In this document: positions 58,981-63,858 of the stretch, one piece after another
How the letters are laid out: each line of letters starts with the position of its first letter
Position numbering within the stretch: position 1 is the stretch's first letter
Origin: Zobellia galactanivorans
Lineage (GTDB): Bacteria; Bacteroidota; Bacteroidia; Flavobacteriales; Flavobacteriaceae
Assembly: GCF_000973105.1 (NCBI RefSeq)
Contig: NC_015844.1
Location: 2,290,501-2,354,500 of the forward strand
Length of the DNA: 64,000 nt
Reading direction: 5' to 3'
Notes under the pieces: model-generated
The model's input: only the letters and a program-made list of their open reading frames with translations
What the model was told of the DNA's origin: nothing
Database searches by the model: none
Program-made: the position numbers and the translations under genes

Positions 58981-59706
58981 CTACCTTTTTGCCCAAATCT
59001 CGTACATGGGTTCTCCCTTACTATTGTTTCCGGTATGGTGCCAATCGCTTCCTTTTAGTTCGTAGTCGAAATTTAAGGTCGCTCCCACACGGGAATCGTC
59101 TTTTGAGAAAAAGTCTATGTTTTCGGTGTAATGGCCGTCTTTTGAACTAAAGGAACCTCCGCCCGTACCGAAAAATTTCATGCTGTCGGTATGGTAGGCA
59201 ATCCATTGAAAGCGTCCGTTCATAAGTAGTTTGAGTGTTTTTCTAGGGTTTTCTTCGCCCCTGCGCTCTTGACCGGTATCGGGGCCGCGTGTGGCAAAAA
59301 GCCATTTCCCGTCCAAGGCTTGTGTAAGGTGGGCAATCGGTTTAAAAGTAGCGCTGGATTTCAGTTCAAGAACAAGGGCATCCTCTTTTTGTTCGAAGGG
59401 AATCTGTAGTGTCTTCAGTTGGTCGTTTTCGTAATTGGAATTGAATTCCAAATCGACAATAAGGTGATTACCTTCTACTTTTACAAAACCTCCACGGGTC
59501 ATTATAAAGCGGGCCGGACTTTTTTCGTAGACCGTATGTACAAGGTAACCATCGTTGATATGAAGCTCATGGGTGGTATTTTTTTGGTCGATGTGCTCTT
59601 CAAAAAGGTAACTTTTTGATGCCATTTGGGCACTGACAAGATGGGTCGTGGCCAAAATGAGGAATAAAACCATGCATTTTGTCCTAATTTTGATTGTAGT
59701 TTTCAT
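58981..59706 (-). CDS. Secreted lipocalin-like protein of unknown function
   Basis: 241 residues with a signal peptide (hydrophobic core MVLFLILATTHLVSA). The mature protein is beta-rich with two halves. The C-terminal half (KWLFATRGPDTGQERRGEENPRKTLKLL, then GRFQWIAYHTDSMKFFGTGGGSF) has the look of lipocalin-like/DUF4488-type secreted proteins of Bacteroidetes. No catalytic motif seen. Divergent from the polyamine operon. It is commonly annotated only as membrane or secreted protein; function not known. Confidence 0.7.
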   Translation of the reverse strand: MKTTIKIRTKCMVLFLILATTHLVSAQMASKSYLFEEHIDQKNTTHELHINDGYLVHTVYEKSPARFIMTRGGFVKVEGNHLIVDLEFNSNYENDQLKTLQIPFEQKEDALVLELKSSATFKPIAHLTQALDGKWLFATRGPDTGQERRGEENPRKTLKLLMNGRFQWIAYHTDSMKFFGTGGGSFSSKDGHYTENIDFFSKDDSRVGATLNFDYELKGSDWHHTGNNSKGEPMYEIWAKR

Positions 59707-59818
59707 TTGTTGAGGATTTTTAATGGTTTAAAAATAAGGTAATTACATTATATTTTTAGCTTTTGGACCTCCTTTTAAAATTTTTTTTCACGCTTTGTCG
59801 TAATTTTTTTGAAAATTC

Positions 59819-59848
59819 TTGATTTTAATTTTTTTTTGTTTTCATTTG
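59819..59848 (+). promoter_or_regulatory. Candidate promoter of the structured leader and speA operon
   Basis: TTG at 59819-59821, a 19-bp spacer and TTCATTTG at 59841-59848 (one mismatch to TAnnTTTG) would start transcription near 59855, about 30 nt before the first leader helix and 300 nt before the speA start codon. Confidence 0.5.
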
Positions 59849-59884
59849 TCCTGTCTTTAGCGATTTAAAACTAGAGGCGTATAG

Positions 59885-60044
59885 AGCTTTTAGCTGAACA
59901 TTATGCAATGTGTTTCTATGTTCGGGCTATGGGAGATTAGGAAGTCAAATCTCATAGCAACCCATCAGATGGGCGGCCGAATTTTAAAGCTAACTTCCGA
60001 TTTTTCTACTACTATTGTGCAAAGCCAGCACAACTACTTTTTTA
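59885..60044 (+). ncRNA. Candidate riboswitch/attenuator leader with pseudoknot
   Basis: Dense complementary pairing read by eye. P0: AGCTTT (59885-59890)/AAAGCT (59986-59991). A small hairpin ACATT/AATGT at 59898-59911. P1: TTCGG (59921-59925)/CCGAA (59977-59981). P2: CTATG-GG-AGATT (59927-59938)/AATCT-CATAG (59948-59957). P3: CCCAT/ATGGG (59961-59973). The P2 loop GGAAGT (59940-59945) is complementary to ACTTCC (59993-59998), a 6-bp pseudoknot. This gives a three-way junction closed by a pseudoknot. A terminator-like hairpin follows: TTGTGC/GCACAA (60015-60033) and a T-run. No class known to me matches. Position before speA suggests control by arginine, agmatine, a polyamine or SAM. Confidence 0.6.
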
Positions 60045-60156
60045 TTCCTACTACTCAGGAACAAATTCTTATATGATACCATCGGTAACAATTATTTAAT
60101 CTTTACAGCACACCTTAGTAAAAAAATATACCGATTTTCATTCACAAGAATTCACA

Positions 60157-61614
60157 ATGAATACAAAATACATCGATCTGATCGATCAAACTTACTTTTT
60201 CCCTCAAGAGGAGTTCACCCTTGAGGACGAGCACTTGAAATTTCATGACATACCGCTTAGAGATGTGGTGGAAAAATTTGGGAGCCCTTTAAAATTCACC
60301 TATCTGCCTAAAATTTCAGAGAATATCGGCAGGGCGAGAAACTGGTTTGCGAACGCTATTGAAAAGAATGCCTACAAGGGCAAATACCACTATTGTTATT
60401 GTACCAAAAGTTCGCACTTTCAGCATATCTTACACGAAGCGCTCAAGAACGATATCCATATCGAGACCTCTTCGGCCTTTGACATCAATATCGTAGAGCA
60501 GTTGAAAAAAGATGGAAAGCTAAAAGATAGTGCCTATGTAATCTGTAACGGTTTCAAACGCGAGCAGTATGTAGATAATATCGCGAGGCTGATCAATAAC
60601 GGCCATAGGAACTGTATCCCTATCATTGATAATTACGAAGAGATCGGACTTTTGTCCGACGTTATAGACGATACCTTTAAAATCGGGATTCGAATAGCTT
60701 CTGAGGAAGAACCCAAATTCGAGTTCTATACCTCTCGCTTGGGAATTGGCTACAAGAACATTGTACCGTTTTTTGAAAACGAAATCAAGGACAACGACAA
60801 GGTAGAGCTGAAAATGCTTCACTTTTTTATCAATACCGGTATTCGTGACAATGCCTATTATTGGAACGAGTTGGTAAAATGTCTGAAAGTGTACACCCGT
60901 TTGAAAAAAATCTGTCCCTCTTTGGATAGCTTGAATATTGGTGGAGGATTTCCCATCAAGAATTCCTTGGCCTTTGAGTACGATTATCAATATATGATCA
61001 ACGAAATCTTGAACCAGATCAATATTACTTGCGAAGAGGCCGATGTGCCGGTTCCCCATATTTTTACGGAGTTCGGAAGTTTTACCGTTGGTGAGAGCGG
61101 CGGGGCTATTTATGAAATTCTCTACCAAAAACAACAGAACGACCGTGAAAAATGGAATATGATCGATTCATCTTTCATTACCACTTTGCCCGATACTTGG
61201 GCCATTAACAAGCGATTTATCATGTTGCCCATCAACCGATGGAACGACGAGTACGAACGCGTGCTTTTGGGTGGCTTGACCTGCGATAGCGATGATTATT
61301 ACAATAGTGAGCAGAACATGAACGCTATTTACCTGCCCAAATACAAACGCGATAAACCTTTGTATATAGGCTTTTTCAATACAGGGGCCTACCAAGAGAC
61401 CATTGGCGGTTATGGCGGTCTACAGCATTGCTTGATCCCCCAGCCCAAACATATATTGATAGATAAGGATGCCGATGGCAATCTTACCTATGAGGTCTTT
61501 AGTCCCCAACAAAAGGCGGAAGACCTACTGGATATTTTGGGTTATAAAACGGATAAATCTAGCGTAGGCACCAGCGATACTACTATCGAACATGCAATTA
61601 CATCAAACGTATAA
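60157..61614 (+). CDS. speA: Arginine decarboxylase (PLP-dependent, alanine-racemase-type barrel)
   Basis: 485 residues. Converts arginine to agmatine with pyridoxal phosphate in the cytoplasm. A probable Schiff-base lysine lies in YHYCYCTKSSHF (about residue 80); the barrel continues with HFFINTGIRDNAYYWNEL and the phosphate-binding glycine loop LNIGGGFPIKNS near 268. A C-terminal domain carries FITTLPDTWAINKRF, LLGGLTCDSDD and FFNTGAYQETIGGYGGLQH. It is shorter than the 630-residue enterobacterial biosynthetic enzyme but of the size found in Bacteroidetes. Agmatinase follows after 15 bp, which supports arginine rather than lysine, ornithine or diaminopimelate as substrate. Confidence 0.85.
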   Translation: MNTKYIDLIDQTYFFPQEEFTLEDEHLKFHDIPLRDVVEKFGSPLKFTYLPKISENIGRARNWFANAIEKNAYKGKYHYCYCTKSSHFQHILHEALKNDIHIETSSAFDINIVEQLKKDGKLKDSAYVICNGFKREQYVDNIARLINNGHRNCIPIIDNYEEIGLLSDVIDDTFKIGIRIASEEEPKFEFYTSRLGIGYKNIVPFFENEIKDNDKVELKMLHFFINTGIRDNAYYWNELVKCLKVYTRLKKICPSLDSLNIGGGFPIKNSLAFEYDYQYMINEILNQINITCEEADVPVPHIFTEFGSFTVGESGGAIYEILYQKQQNDREKWNMIDSSFITTLPDTWAINKRFIMLPINRWNDEYERVLLGGLTCDSDDYYNSEQNMNAIYLPKYKRDKPLYIGFFNTGAYQETIGGYGGLQHCLIPQPKHILIDKDADGNLTYEVFSPQQKAEDLLDILGYKTDKSSVGTSDTTIEHAITSNV

Positions 61615-61629
61615 ACTTCAACAATCAAG

Positions 61630-62571
61630 ATGAGCACAACAAAGAATTATGCGGGCATTCCCGACAAATTCGCACAATTAGAAACGGCCAAGGTAGTTTT
61701 AATACCTGTGCCTTATGATGGAACAAGTACTTGGGGCAAAGGTGCCGATAAGGGCCCCCAAGCATTTTTAGAGGCTTCCGAGAATATGGAGCTTTACGAT
61801 ATCGAAACCGATAGCGAGGTGTATGAGCAAGGCATTCATTTGGCCGAGGCCATAACCGAGAACAGCTCACCGGAAGCCGTGGTAAACGCTGTTCATAAAC
61901 AGACCAAAGATTACATTAAGCGCAACAAGTTCGTAACCTTGTTCGGGGGGGAGCATTCCATTTCGATAGGTACGATCCGCGCCTTTAACGAATGTTTCGA
62001 TAATCTGACCGTTTTGCAGATCGATGCCCATGCCGACCTACGCGAGTCGTACGAGGGTACAAAATACAACCATGCCTGTGCGGTTCACGAAGCCAGTCAG
62101 ACCACAAATCTGATCCAAGTAGGGATTCGTTCCATGGATGCTATAGAAAAATCGTTTATGGACGAAGAAAAGACCTTCTTTGCCCACGATATGGTACATG
62201 ATGAGTATTGGACGGACAAGGTAATCGAAGCCATGACCGACAACGTCTTGATTACCTTTGATCTTGATGCCTTTGATCCTTCGATCATGCCTTCAACGGG
62301 AACTCCCGAGCCAGGGGGACTCTTTTGGTACGAGACCTTAGAGTTTTTAAAACAGGTATTCAAGGAGAAAAACGTAGTGGGCTTTGATATTGTGGAGCTC
62401 TGTCCCAATCCCGCGGATAAATCTTCAGATTTTCTTGCCGCTAAATTGTATTATAAAATGCTAAGCTATAAATTTATGGGTGAGGCGTCAGATGACGAAT
62501 ATGACAATACCTACGATGTAGATTACAAATCAGGTACGAACGGTTTAAAATTTGATGATGACGAAGACTAA
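61630..62571 (+). CDS. speB: Agmatinase
   Basis: 313-residue ureohydrolase, agmatine to putrescine and urea. The binuclear manganese motifs are complete: GGEHSISIGTIRAF (near 107), QIDAHADLRESYEG (near 130) and FDLDAFDPSIMPSTGTPEPGG (near 213-233). The C-terminus carries an acidic extension. Between speA and a deoxyhypusine-synthase-like gene whose start lies inside its last codons. Confidence 0.93.
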   Translation: MSTTKNYAGIPDKFAQLETAKVVLIPVPYDGTSTWGKGADKGPQAFLEASENMELYDIETDSEVYEQGIHLAEAITENSSPEAVVNAVHKQTKDYIKRNKFVTLFGGEHSISIGTIRAFNECFDNLTVLQIDAHADLRESYEGTKYNHACAVHEASQTTNLIQVGIRSMDAIEKSFMDEEKTFFAHDMVHDEYWTDKVIEAMTDNVLITFDLDAFDPSIMPSTGTPEPGGLFWYETLEFLKQVFKEKNVVGFDIVELCPNPADKSSDFLAAKLYYKMLSYKFMGEASDDEYDNTYDVDYKSGTNGLKFDDDED

Positions 62572-63535
62572 AGGAGCAATTTCCGAATTTATAGAAAAAT
62601 ATTACCTGCATTTTAATGCTGCCGCTTTGGTTGATGCCGCCAAGGCATACGAAGAGCAATTGAACAAAGGTTCTAAAATGCTTGTGTCATTGGCCGGAGC
62701 GATGAGTACTGCCGAATTGGGCAAGATCTTTGCCGAAATGATCCGTCAAGACAAGGTACAGATCATATCGTGTACAGGGGCCAACCTAGAGGAGGATATC
62801 ATGAATTTGGTAGCACATTCACATTACAAACGTGTTCCCGAATACCGAGACCTTACGCCCCAAGATGAGTGGAATTTACTCGAAAAGGGCCTGAATAGGG
62901 TAACCGATACCTGTATTCCCGAAGAGGAAGCCTTTAGAAGGTTGCAGGAGCATATTTTTAAGATATGGAAAGATGCCGAGGAAAAAGGGGAGCGTTACTT
63001 GCCGCATGAATACATGTATAAAATGTTGCTTTCCGGGGTGCTTGAAGAGTATTATGAAATCGACCTTAAAGATTCATGGATGTACGCCGCTGCGGAGAAG
63101 AACCTACCTATTGTGTGCCCAGGATGGGAAGACAGTACTATGGGCAACATCTTTGCATCTTATGTGCTAAAGGGCGAGTTGAAGGCCAGTACCATGAAAT
63201 CGGGTATTGAATATATGACCTTCTTGGCCGATTGGTATACCGATAACTCTAAAAACGGTATCGGCTTCTTTCAAATCGGAGGAGGTATAGCTGGTGATTT
63301 TCCTATCTGTGTAGTGCCTATGCTCTATCAAGATATGGAACGTACCGATACACCGTTCTGGAGCTATTTCTGCCAGATCAGTGATTCTACCACCAGTTAC
63401 GGGTCGTATTCGGGTGCGGTTCCGAACGAGAAAATTACATGGGGGAAACTCGATATCGATACCCCGAAATTTATAATAGAAAGCGATGCAACCATTGTTG
63501 CGCCATTAATTTTTGCTTATCTTCTTGACTTATGA
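62555..63535 (+). CDS. Deoxyhypusine synthase-like protein (probable homospermidine synthase)
   Basis: About 326 residues, starting at one of two adjacent ATGs (62555, 62558), overlapping speB by 17 bp. NAD-dependent aminobutyl transferase fold: MLVSLAGAMSTAELGKIFAEMI, IISCTGANLEEDIMNLVAHSHYKRVPEYRDL, and the catalytic lysine region ITWGKLDIDTPKFIIESDATIVAPLIFAYLL near the C-terminus. Bacteria lack the eukaryotic eIF5A substrate; family members studied in bacteria make homospermidine from putrescine and/or spermidine. Together with speA-speB this gives a route from arginine to putrescine and then homospermidine (pathway end inferred). Confidence 0.85.
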   Translation: MMTKTKGAISEFIEKYYLHFNAAALVDAAKAYEEQLNKGSKMLVSLAGAMSTAELGKIFAEMIRQDKVQIISCTGANLEEDIMNLVAHSHYKRVPEYRDLTPQDEWNLLEKGLNRVTDTCIPEEEAFRRLQEHIFKIWKDAEEKGERYLPHEYMYKMLLSGVLEEYYEIDLKDSWMYAAAEKNLPIVCPGWEDSTMGNIFASYVLKGELKASTMKSGIEYMTFLADWYTDNSKNGIGFFQIGGGIAGDFPICVVPMLYQDMERTDTPFWSYFCQISDSTTSYGSYSGAVPNEKITWGKLDIDTPKFIIESDATIVAPLIFAYLLDL

Positions 63536-63858
63536 GTAGTAGAAAAGAAAACACAAATTTAAAGCGCGTCATCGTAGACTTTAAAAAGTTGACCCCAGAA
63601 GTGTTGAAGCTTTTGGTGGAGGCTTATCCCGATGGTTATGATGATCGAAATATTATTTCCTTCAAAAATGCCAATGGTGAACGTATTGAAGCTGTTGAAG
63701 TGTTGACCGAAGACACCAAATATTTGGTGAAGATCAGTGCGAAGCTTGAGTACACTATGGAGAATTACGACGAAGATGATTATGAAGATTTTGATGATGA
63801 CGATCCAGATGCGGTAGTAGAGCCCGACCCTGAAGATATGGCTCAAGACGATGATTAG
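63532..63858 (+). CDS. Small acidic conserved-looking protein, unknown function
   Basis: 108 residues, overlapping the preceding gene by 4 bp (ATGA), so co-translated with the polyamine genes. N-terminal half is basic and mixed alpha/beta (LKRVIVDFKKLTPEVLKLLVEAYPDGYDDRNII); the C-terminal 35 residues are extremely acidic (DEDDYEDFDDDDPDAVVEPD). The acidic tail could bind cationic polyamines or ribosomal/nucleic-acid-binding partners, but that is speculation. I do not recognise the family. Confidence 0.8.
   Translation: MSSRKENTNLKRVIVDFKKLTPEVLKLLVEAYPDGYDDRNIISFKNANGERIEAVEVLTEDTKYLVKISAKLEYTMENYDEDDYEDFDDDDPDAVVEPDPEDMAQDDD

Follow-up and report, generated by a model that had tools for sequence, protein, structure and literature searches.

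A conserved pseudoknotted RNA within the leader reading frame of the speA operon of Flavobacteriaceae, a candidate leader-peptide attenuator

Does the structured RNA in front of the arginine decarboxylase operon of Zobellia galactanivorans act as a riboswitch, or does it control the operon by other means? We analyzed a stretch of 64,000 nucleotides of this genome (contig NC_015844.1, positions 2,290,501 to 2,354,500), hereafter the window, in whose coordinates all positions are given. A preliminary description had proposed a pseudoknotted RNA of an unassigned class, a terminator and the gene in that order, i.e., the layout of a transcription-attenuating riboswitch. The operon comprises the following genes:

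60157-61614, positive strand: speA-like arginine decarboxylase, operon gene 1 (Pfam Orn_Arg_deC_N, above cut-off)
61630-62571, positive strand: speB, agmatinase (TIGR01230, above cut-off)
62552-63535, positive strand: deoxyhypusine-synthase-like (DHS-like) protein (Pfam DS above cut-off; NCBIfam matches all below cut-off)
63532-63858, positive strand: small acidic protein, operon gene 4 (no Pfam match)

The best NCBIfam matches of the first product were to arginine decarboxylase, all below the cut-off, and the product of gene 4 presented two weak NCBIfam matches, far under it. The DHS-like gene perhaps encodes a homospermidine-type enzyme.

A nucleotide search of 60 genomes, including that of Z. 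galactanivorans, found the leader stretch in 20 of them (a second match of 29 nt, in L021, was left out). Eleven of these genomes belong to other genera; their matches covered approximately positions 59883-60007, which correspond to the proposed RNA, with one exception extending to about 60096. Seventeen of the 20 homologues made up the first RNA alignment; they aligned nearly gap-free, and RNAalifold without an input structure returned the same nested helices. Covariation was analyzed in a larger set, namely the 96 of 120 covariance-model matches (see below) that scored at least 90 bits. The elements of the fold were:

59890-59895/59988-59993, positive strand: closing helix P1, UUAGCU/AGCUAA (96.2% of cells paired, 96 sequences)
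59896-59915, positive strand: hairpin A, GAACA/UGUUU, whose loop contains the start codon of the leader (pairing in 99.0% and 96.6% of cells)
59921-59925/59977-59981, positive strand: helix X, UUCGG/CCGAA (99.0% paired; changes on both sides in 4/5 pairs)
59926-59934/59950-59958, positive strand: P2 (changes on both sides in 9/9 pairs)
59940-59945/59993-59998, positive strand: pseudoknot GGAAGU/ACUUCC, P2 loop with a 3' strand (99.5% paired)
59960-59965/59969-59974, positive strand: P3 hairpin (changes on both sides in 6/6 pairs; 88.7% paired)
59988-59998, positive strand: 3' strands of P1 and of the pseudoknot, which are also codons K-L-T-S of the leader peptide (see below)

Across the 96 sequences, 96.2% of the cells of the whole structure paired, and double changes were present in 23 of 36 pairs as compared with 11.3 in shuffles. 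Sliding the partners by one column halved the pairing; structures slid by 1-3 columns still contained 11-17 pairs with double changes. When substitutions were re-dealt on a FastTree tree (25 replicates), the 37-pair structure accounted for the eight best-ranked of 7273 pairs, for 11 of the best 12 and for 12 of the best 15; three extra-structural pairs also ranked within the top 15, and under the strict null 1 pair alone passed E<0.05 over the 7273. The top-ranked pair belonged to P2, four of the six best covarying pairs to P3, and the top 12 included ten P2/P3 pairs together with one from helix X, whose best pair was at rank 10. Two of the six pseudoknot pairs, the outer ones, showed double changes (ranks 15 and 39), the other four ranking low. 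P1, which RNAalifold also recovered, and hairpin A, with no doubly changed pairs in the 96 sequences, are nearly invariant and so give little covariation information.

The pseudoknot was thus found exactly where the preliminary description had placed it, with 99.5% of cells pairing in the 96 homologues. P2, P3 and helix X are present and covary, but the closing helix AGCUUU/AAAGCU, preferred in single-sequence folding, was paired in 63.4% of cells, which is the shuffled level, and is not conserved. The preliminary description gives its P1 without coordinates; the conserved closing helix is UUAGCU/AGCUAA. Compensatory changes, proposed as a check of the fold, were seen in P2, P3, helix X and two pseudoknot pairs, P1 being too invariant to covary. 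Folding of the single sequence was mildly better than that of shuffles (z -1.73; 13/200 shuffles equally good), so that the case for the fold is a comparative one. We also observed an alternative pairing, CUGAAC/GUUCGG (59894-59899/59920-59925), with 96.0% of cells paired and little covariation, which competes with P1, hairpin A and helix X and is a possible second conformation or switch state.

The covariance model located the RNA at 120 places in 118 of 249 sampled Flavobacteriaceae genomes. In a sample of the whole phylum, searched with stricter filters, 5 of 395 genomes matched, all five being Flavobacteriaceae, and 28 speA loci taken from 39 available, 26 of them from other families, gave no RNA match at E<=0.01. 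The position proposed for the RNA, in front of a polyamine operon, was borne out: it is a cis-acting element, and 114 of the 120 copies lie directly before speA (93 by coordinates and 21 by tblastn). The others comprised one copy two genes upstream of speA (L110), one that runs off its contig (G200) and two (L099 and L102, genus g19) before a homologue of operon gene 4. In these two g19 genomes, searches for speA and for the DHS-like gene found neither, and that for speB gave weak matches alone (18-31% identity); the presence of the RNA before the gene-4 homologue in these genomes would tie gene 4 to the polyamine regulon. The remaining two are second copies, L111 (G209) and L114 (G138), which lie in front of genes for small proteins of secreted appearance, similar to each other on visual inspection; in the L114 copy, the reading frame described below and the 5' part have been lost.

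An exact-pattern scan of named genomes yielded at least 119 stretches, with 80 loci among the matches listed. Most of the record titles listed name genera of this family, among them Winogradskyella, Algibacter, Lacinutrix, Maribacter, Olleya, Tamlana and Robiginitalea; a few records among the matches listed name a higher group alone, and one is titled Campylobacterales. The speA start was at most 400 nt past the leader stop in 73 of the 80 listed loci, and in six merely 1-167 nt of sequence were left after that stop.

The preliminary description had assigned the RNA to no class, which agreed with our searches: Rfam 15 at gathering score found two tRNAs in the whole 64 kb and nothing at the leader. 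A scan of 59700-60200 at E<=10 gave two irrelevant chance-level matches and no SAM family, and a scan covering 11 relatives at E<=1 gave no match at the element, SAM included. The string AGCAACC in the leader, which we took to be SAM-I-like, is not conserved in the relatives, so that a SAM-I or spermidine riboswitch was discarded. The pseudoknot strand of the speA leader lies outside the junction, unlike that of SAM-I. The spermidine riboswitch, a SAM-I variant, is likewise a conserved leader RNA before polyamine genes; its description in PMC10853860 gives 13 examples from Gram-positive genera and metagenomes, with a SAM-I four-stem fold and a transcription terminator, unlike the RNA studied here. 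A literature search retrieved no paper on the speA leader of Flavobacteriaceae, and section 19 of PMC9723704, on other Flavobacteriaceae leaders, names them without speA.

Most of the RNA turned out to be contained in an open reading frame, which the preliminary description had overlooked, thereby taking coding sequence for an expression platform:

59903-60076, positive strand: leader ORF of 57 codons plus UGA, MQCVSMFGLWEIRKSNLIATHQMGGRILKLTSDFSTTIVQSQHNYFFIPTTQEQILI (frame kept in 119/120 RNA copies)
60065-60076, positive strand: last codons of the leader, Ile-Leu-Ile-UGA (in agreement with the conserved ending [IFL]-x-[IV]-stop)
59840-59848, positive strand: probable promoter -7 element, TTTCATTTG (from the sequence; Bacteroidota TAnnTTTG type)

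The pseudoknotted RNA forms the first half of this frame, the 5' strand of P1 (59890-59895) being located 5' of the start codon. An open frame starting with NTG was found by script in 114 of the 120 copies and by hand in five more, among which two had a start codon displaced by about 10 nt; 113 of the 114 scripted frames reach a stop and one runs to the contig end. These 114 leaders were chosen for an open frame and lack in-frame stops by construction; the informative evidence is therefore the retention of the frame in 119 of 120 copies and the number of stops that the two alternative frames contain in the RNA part of the 114, namely 397 and 195. The start codons were TTG in 70, ATG in 36 and GTG in 8 of the 114, i.e., the first base varies while T and G are fixed. 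Leader length was usually 55-57 codons, and 54-57 in 97/114. The element is thus a short conserved ORF encoded in cis upstream of the gene that it would control, as arrest peptides are. Readthrough of the leader UGA into speA would be in frame and open in none of 81 leaders. In Robiginitalea sediminis (L309) the leader is 79 codons long, and its TGA shares bases with the ATG of speA (ATGA), an arrangement like that of translationally coupled genes.

The promoter-like element of the preliminary description is plausible. We take 59840-59848 to belong to the Bacteroidota TAnnTTTG consensus; its TTTG is at -58 from the leader start codon in Z. galactanivorans, and 95 relatives gave 54 counts of TTTG between -24 and -26. 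The transcript would start a few nt 3' of 59840-59848 here and, in many species, just 5' of P1, in which case P1, hairpin A and the pseudoknot would enclose the initiation site.

The two halves of the frame have evolved under different constraints. In codons 2-32, pS was 0.112 and pN 0.092 (pN/pS 0.82), and from codon 33 onward pS was 0.539 and pN/pS 0.40, with 0.36 in the last 20 codons; these values come from the 438 close pairs among 1891, in a peptide alignment of 62 of the 114 leaders that covers the commonest type alone. Codons 2-32 barely change either way, indicating that their bases matter as RNA, and the low pN/pS of the second half, together with columns F48, P50, T51 and T52, in which codon positions 1 and 2 are kept and position 3 drifts, indicates that there the residues matter. 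The leader is accordingly bipartite at the level of sequence comparison, with codons 2-32 constrained as RNA and the remainder as protein, and in the commonest type (62 leaders) it carries a selected C-terminal peptide sequence. Across the family the second half comes in several unalike types.

Among the 113 complete frames, 99 finished in [IFL]-x-[IV]-stop; the last residue was Ile or Val in 102 and the third from the end Ile, Phe or Leu in 102, the penultimate residue varying (R 41, Q 39, L 12, M 7). The stop was UGA in 99 of the 113 and in 62 of 64 further loci, some of them close relatives of the first set, and U followed the UGA in 81%. By comparison, UGA ended none of 60 operon genes in 26 context loci (22 speA, 18 speB and 20 DHS-like) and 7 of 45 stop-to-stop ORFs of at least 200 codons in the window. 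In the context loci the narrower motif [LIF][RQ][IV]-stop ended 13 of 619 ORFs of 45-100 codons, 12 of the 13 being the leaders themselves, and an ORF ending in this narrower motif was found in 0/33 speA leaders outside Flavobacteriaceae. Where the RNA precedes other genes (G026, G655, G090 and the second copy of G209) the conserved peptide end is absent. Sequence comparison thus shows the fold of the RNA and the open frame, as well as selection acting on the second part of the peptide and on its UGA stop.

Protein-level selection on the second half and the nearly fixed length would also suit a small protein acting in trans, e.g., a decarboxylase inhibitor, with the RNA structure tuning its translation. 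We consider this improbable, since the first half evolves under RNA constraint, the second half comes in unlike types, the copies lie in cis directly before speA in 114 of 120 cases, and a bias for UGA would not be expected of such a protein. Even less probable, in our judgment, is classical attenuation by arginine codons and alternative hairpins. It would be in keeping with arginine as the substrate of SpeA, with Arg at the penultimate codon in 41/113 leaders and with the two hairpins described next, but by eye the leader peptides contain no run of Arg codons, that penultimate codon is Gln, Leu or Met in 58/113, and hairpins with a U-tract are infrequent past the stop. The two hairpins are:

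60015-60033, positive strand: P4 hairpin in the second half of the leader frame (-6.3 kcal/mol), the terminator of the preliminary description
60081-60135, positive strand: hairpin ATCGGTA/TACCGAT between the leader stop and the speA start (z -2.93; 0/200 shuffles equally good)

The hairpin and T-run reported at 60015-60033 do exist, but they are coding: the U-run encodes Tyr-Phe-Phe-Ile, and a U-run behind P4 (at least 6 T in 8) was present in just 14 of 62 alignable relatives, so that an intrinsic terminator at this site was rejected. The region of P4 was nevertheless more stable than synonymous-codon shuffles in 57 of the 62 relatives (mean -7.26 vs -4.79 kcal/mol). The spacer behind the leader stop has a median of 80 nt and shows excess structure 20-56 nt past the stop (mean z -1.55 in 80 leaders); terminator-like hairpins with a U-tract were found past the stop in 18/105 leaders, against 6% in shuffles. 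An inverted repeat, TTAAC-loop-GTTAA, was seen by eye about 24 nt past the stop in several genera, e.g., in G091, G102 and G205 (L138, L139 and L141), and could be a hairpin or an operator.

These results bear on the riboswitch layout initially proposed, which they do not support: its terminator is coding sequence, and the RNA proposed as its aptamer makes up the 5' half of the leader frame, with no conserved intrinsic terminator coupled to it. We regard as unlikely a metabolite riboswitch in which a ligand (a polyamine, arginine or agmatine) would be bound by the pseudoknot itself, with direct control of speA and a secondary role for the frame. The compact covarying pseudoknot close to the putative transcript 5' end, in front of a biosynthetic operon, speaks for it, as do the copies in which the RNA is kept and the peptide end is absent (G026, G655 and the second copies), once even without the frame. 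Retention of the frame in all but one copy, protein-level selection on the second half of the peptide, the UGA-biased stop and the lack of a conserved terminator beside the aptamer argue against it, and translating ribosomes would be expected to unfold the RNA. A structured RNA that binds a protein or stabilizes the mRNA, with neither ligand nor peptide sensing, would agree with the conserved fold and with there being no known ligand; it would leave the peptide end and the UGA bias unexplained, and we give it hardly any weight.

We find it fairly probable that the element is a leader-peptide attenuator of speA, probably working by termination arrest in the style of TnaC and SpeFL, with its start gated by the pseudoknot. 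On this reading the element is transcribed as the leader of the Flavobacteriaceae speA-speB-DHS operon and encodes a peptide of ~56 residues, and speA would be controlled through translation of this leader. The first 32 codons and a few bases of the 5' UTR fold into the pseudoknotted RNA with the start codon in a hairpin loop; as the initiation site would be enclosed by the fold, folding should limit leader translation and the pseudoknot would gate initiation. The remaining 23-25 codons specify the conserved nascent peptide, with the usual end [IFL]-x-[IV]-UGA, which might slow RF2-dependent termination at the UGA upon sensing a metabolite of the pathway. Given the combination of arginine decarboxylase, agmatinase and DHS-like genes, the candidates are arginine, agmatine, putrescine and a triamine, e.g., homospermidine. 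The parked or released ribosome would then decide the fate of the ~80-nt spacer, i.e., folding, termination or translation of speA.

The peptide end and the stop-codon bias resemble those of known termination-arrest peptides. Salmonella orf34/SpeFL is a leader ORF upstream of speF whose translation works via Rho-dependent termination and alternative structures of the mRNA, according to PMC6386406; as in Salmonella and E. coli, the leader studied here combines a short ORF, a long structured leader and a polyamine-biosynthetic decarboxylase behind it, and the same account gives orf34 a UGA stop as well. Unlike the ~56-residue leader before arginine decarboxylase, SpeFL/orf34 has 34 codons and precedes ornithine decarboxylase; in the speA leader, the start codon is held within a conserved pseudoknotted fold. 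Two leader peptides gave no match to any Pfam family at E<=1, so that they do not belong to PF10940, the SpeFL family. In the section of PMC8429421 on these peptides, SpeFL is described as an RF1 inhibitor, and TnaC as ending in UGA, its ligand blocking RF2 at termination and shielding the transcript from Rho. The speA leader shares the UGA-ended peptide with TnaC, arrest being putative here; TnaC is a tryptophan sensor of 24 residues, for which that section mentions no conserved RNA fold within the frame. For the AMD1 leader (MAGDIS) and the AMD1 C-tail, PMC13025110 reports ribosome pausing at the stop codon, the C-tail placing arginine into the peptidyl-transferase centre; these peptides likewise control an enzyme of the polyamine pathway, but they are eukaryotic and unrelated in sequence.

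A two-input device is a more speculative extension, which we would not favor at present: the pseudoknot would itself bind a ligand and gate a leader whose C-terminus senses a metabolite and arrests RF2 at the UGA, i.e., a riboswitch embedded in the gene of an arrest peptide, the two ligands possibly being different. If the attenuator reading is true, polyamine synthesis in Bacteroidota would be under leader-peptide control that matches no known peptide family. It would also be an unusual case of bases that are selected for an RNA fold while remaining part of an open frame; this two-part layout would be a test object for the combination of RNA structure with nascent-peptide sensing, and a way into what flavobacteria sense to set their polyamine levels.

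The peptide motif also occurs beyond the copies detected by the covariance model. Of the 41 genomes with speA and no model match, 40 were examined, one with a partial match (G071) being left out. Fourteen of these 40 speA leaders contained an ORF ending in [LIF][RQ][IV]-stop (at least 45 codons, ending 40-110 nt before speA), as compared with a mean of 0.08 in shuffles. An unfiltered scan of the same 40 leaders gave six RNA matches with E<0.01, four of which fall among the 14 motif-bearing leaders. UGA was the stop in 7 of the 14, suggesting that the link with RF2 would not be universal. Finally, two loci of genus g146 without an RNA match (L261 and L262) presented a different conserved peptide before speA, ending in FANIRV-UGA.
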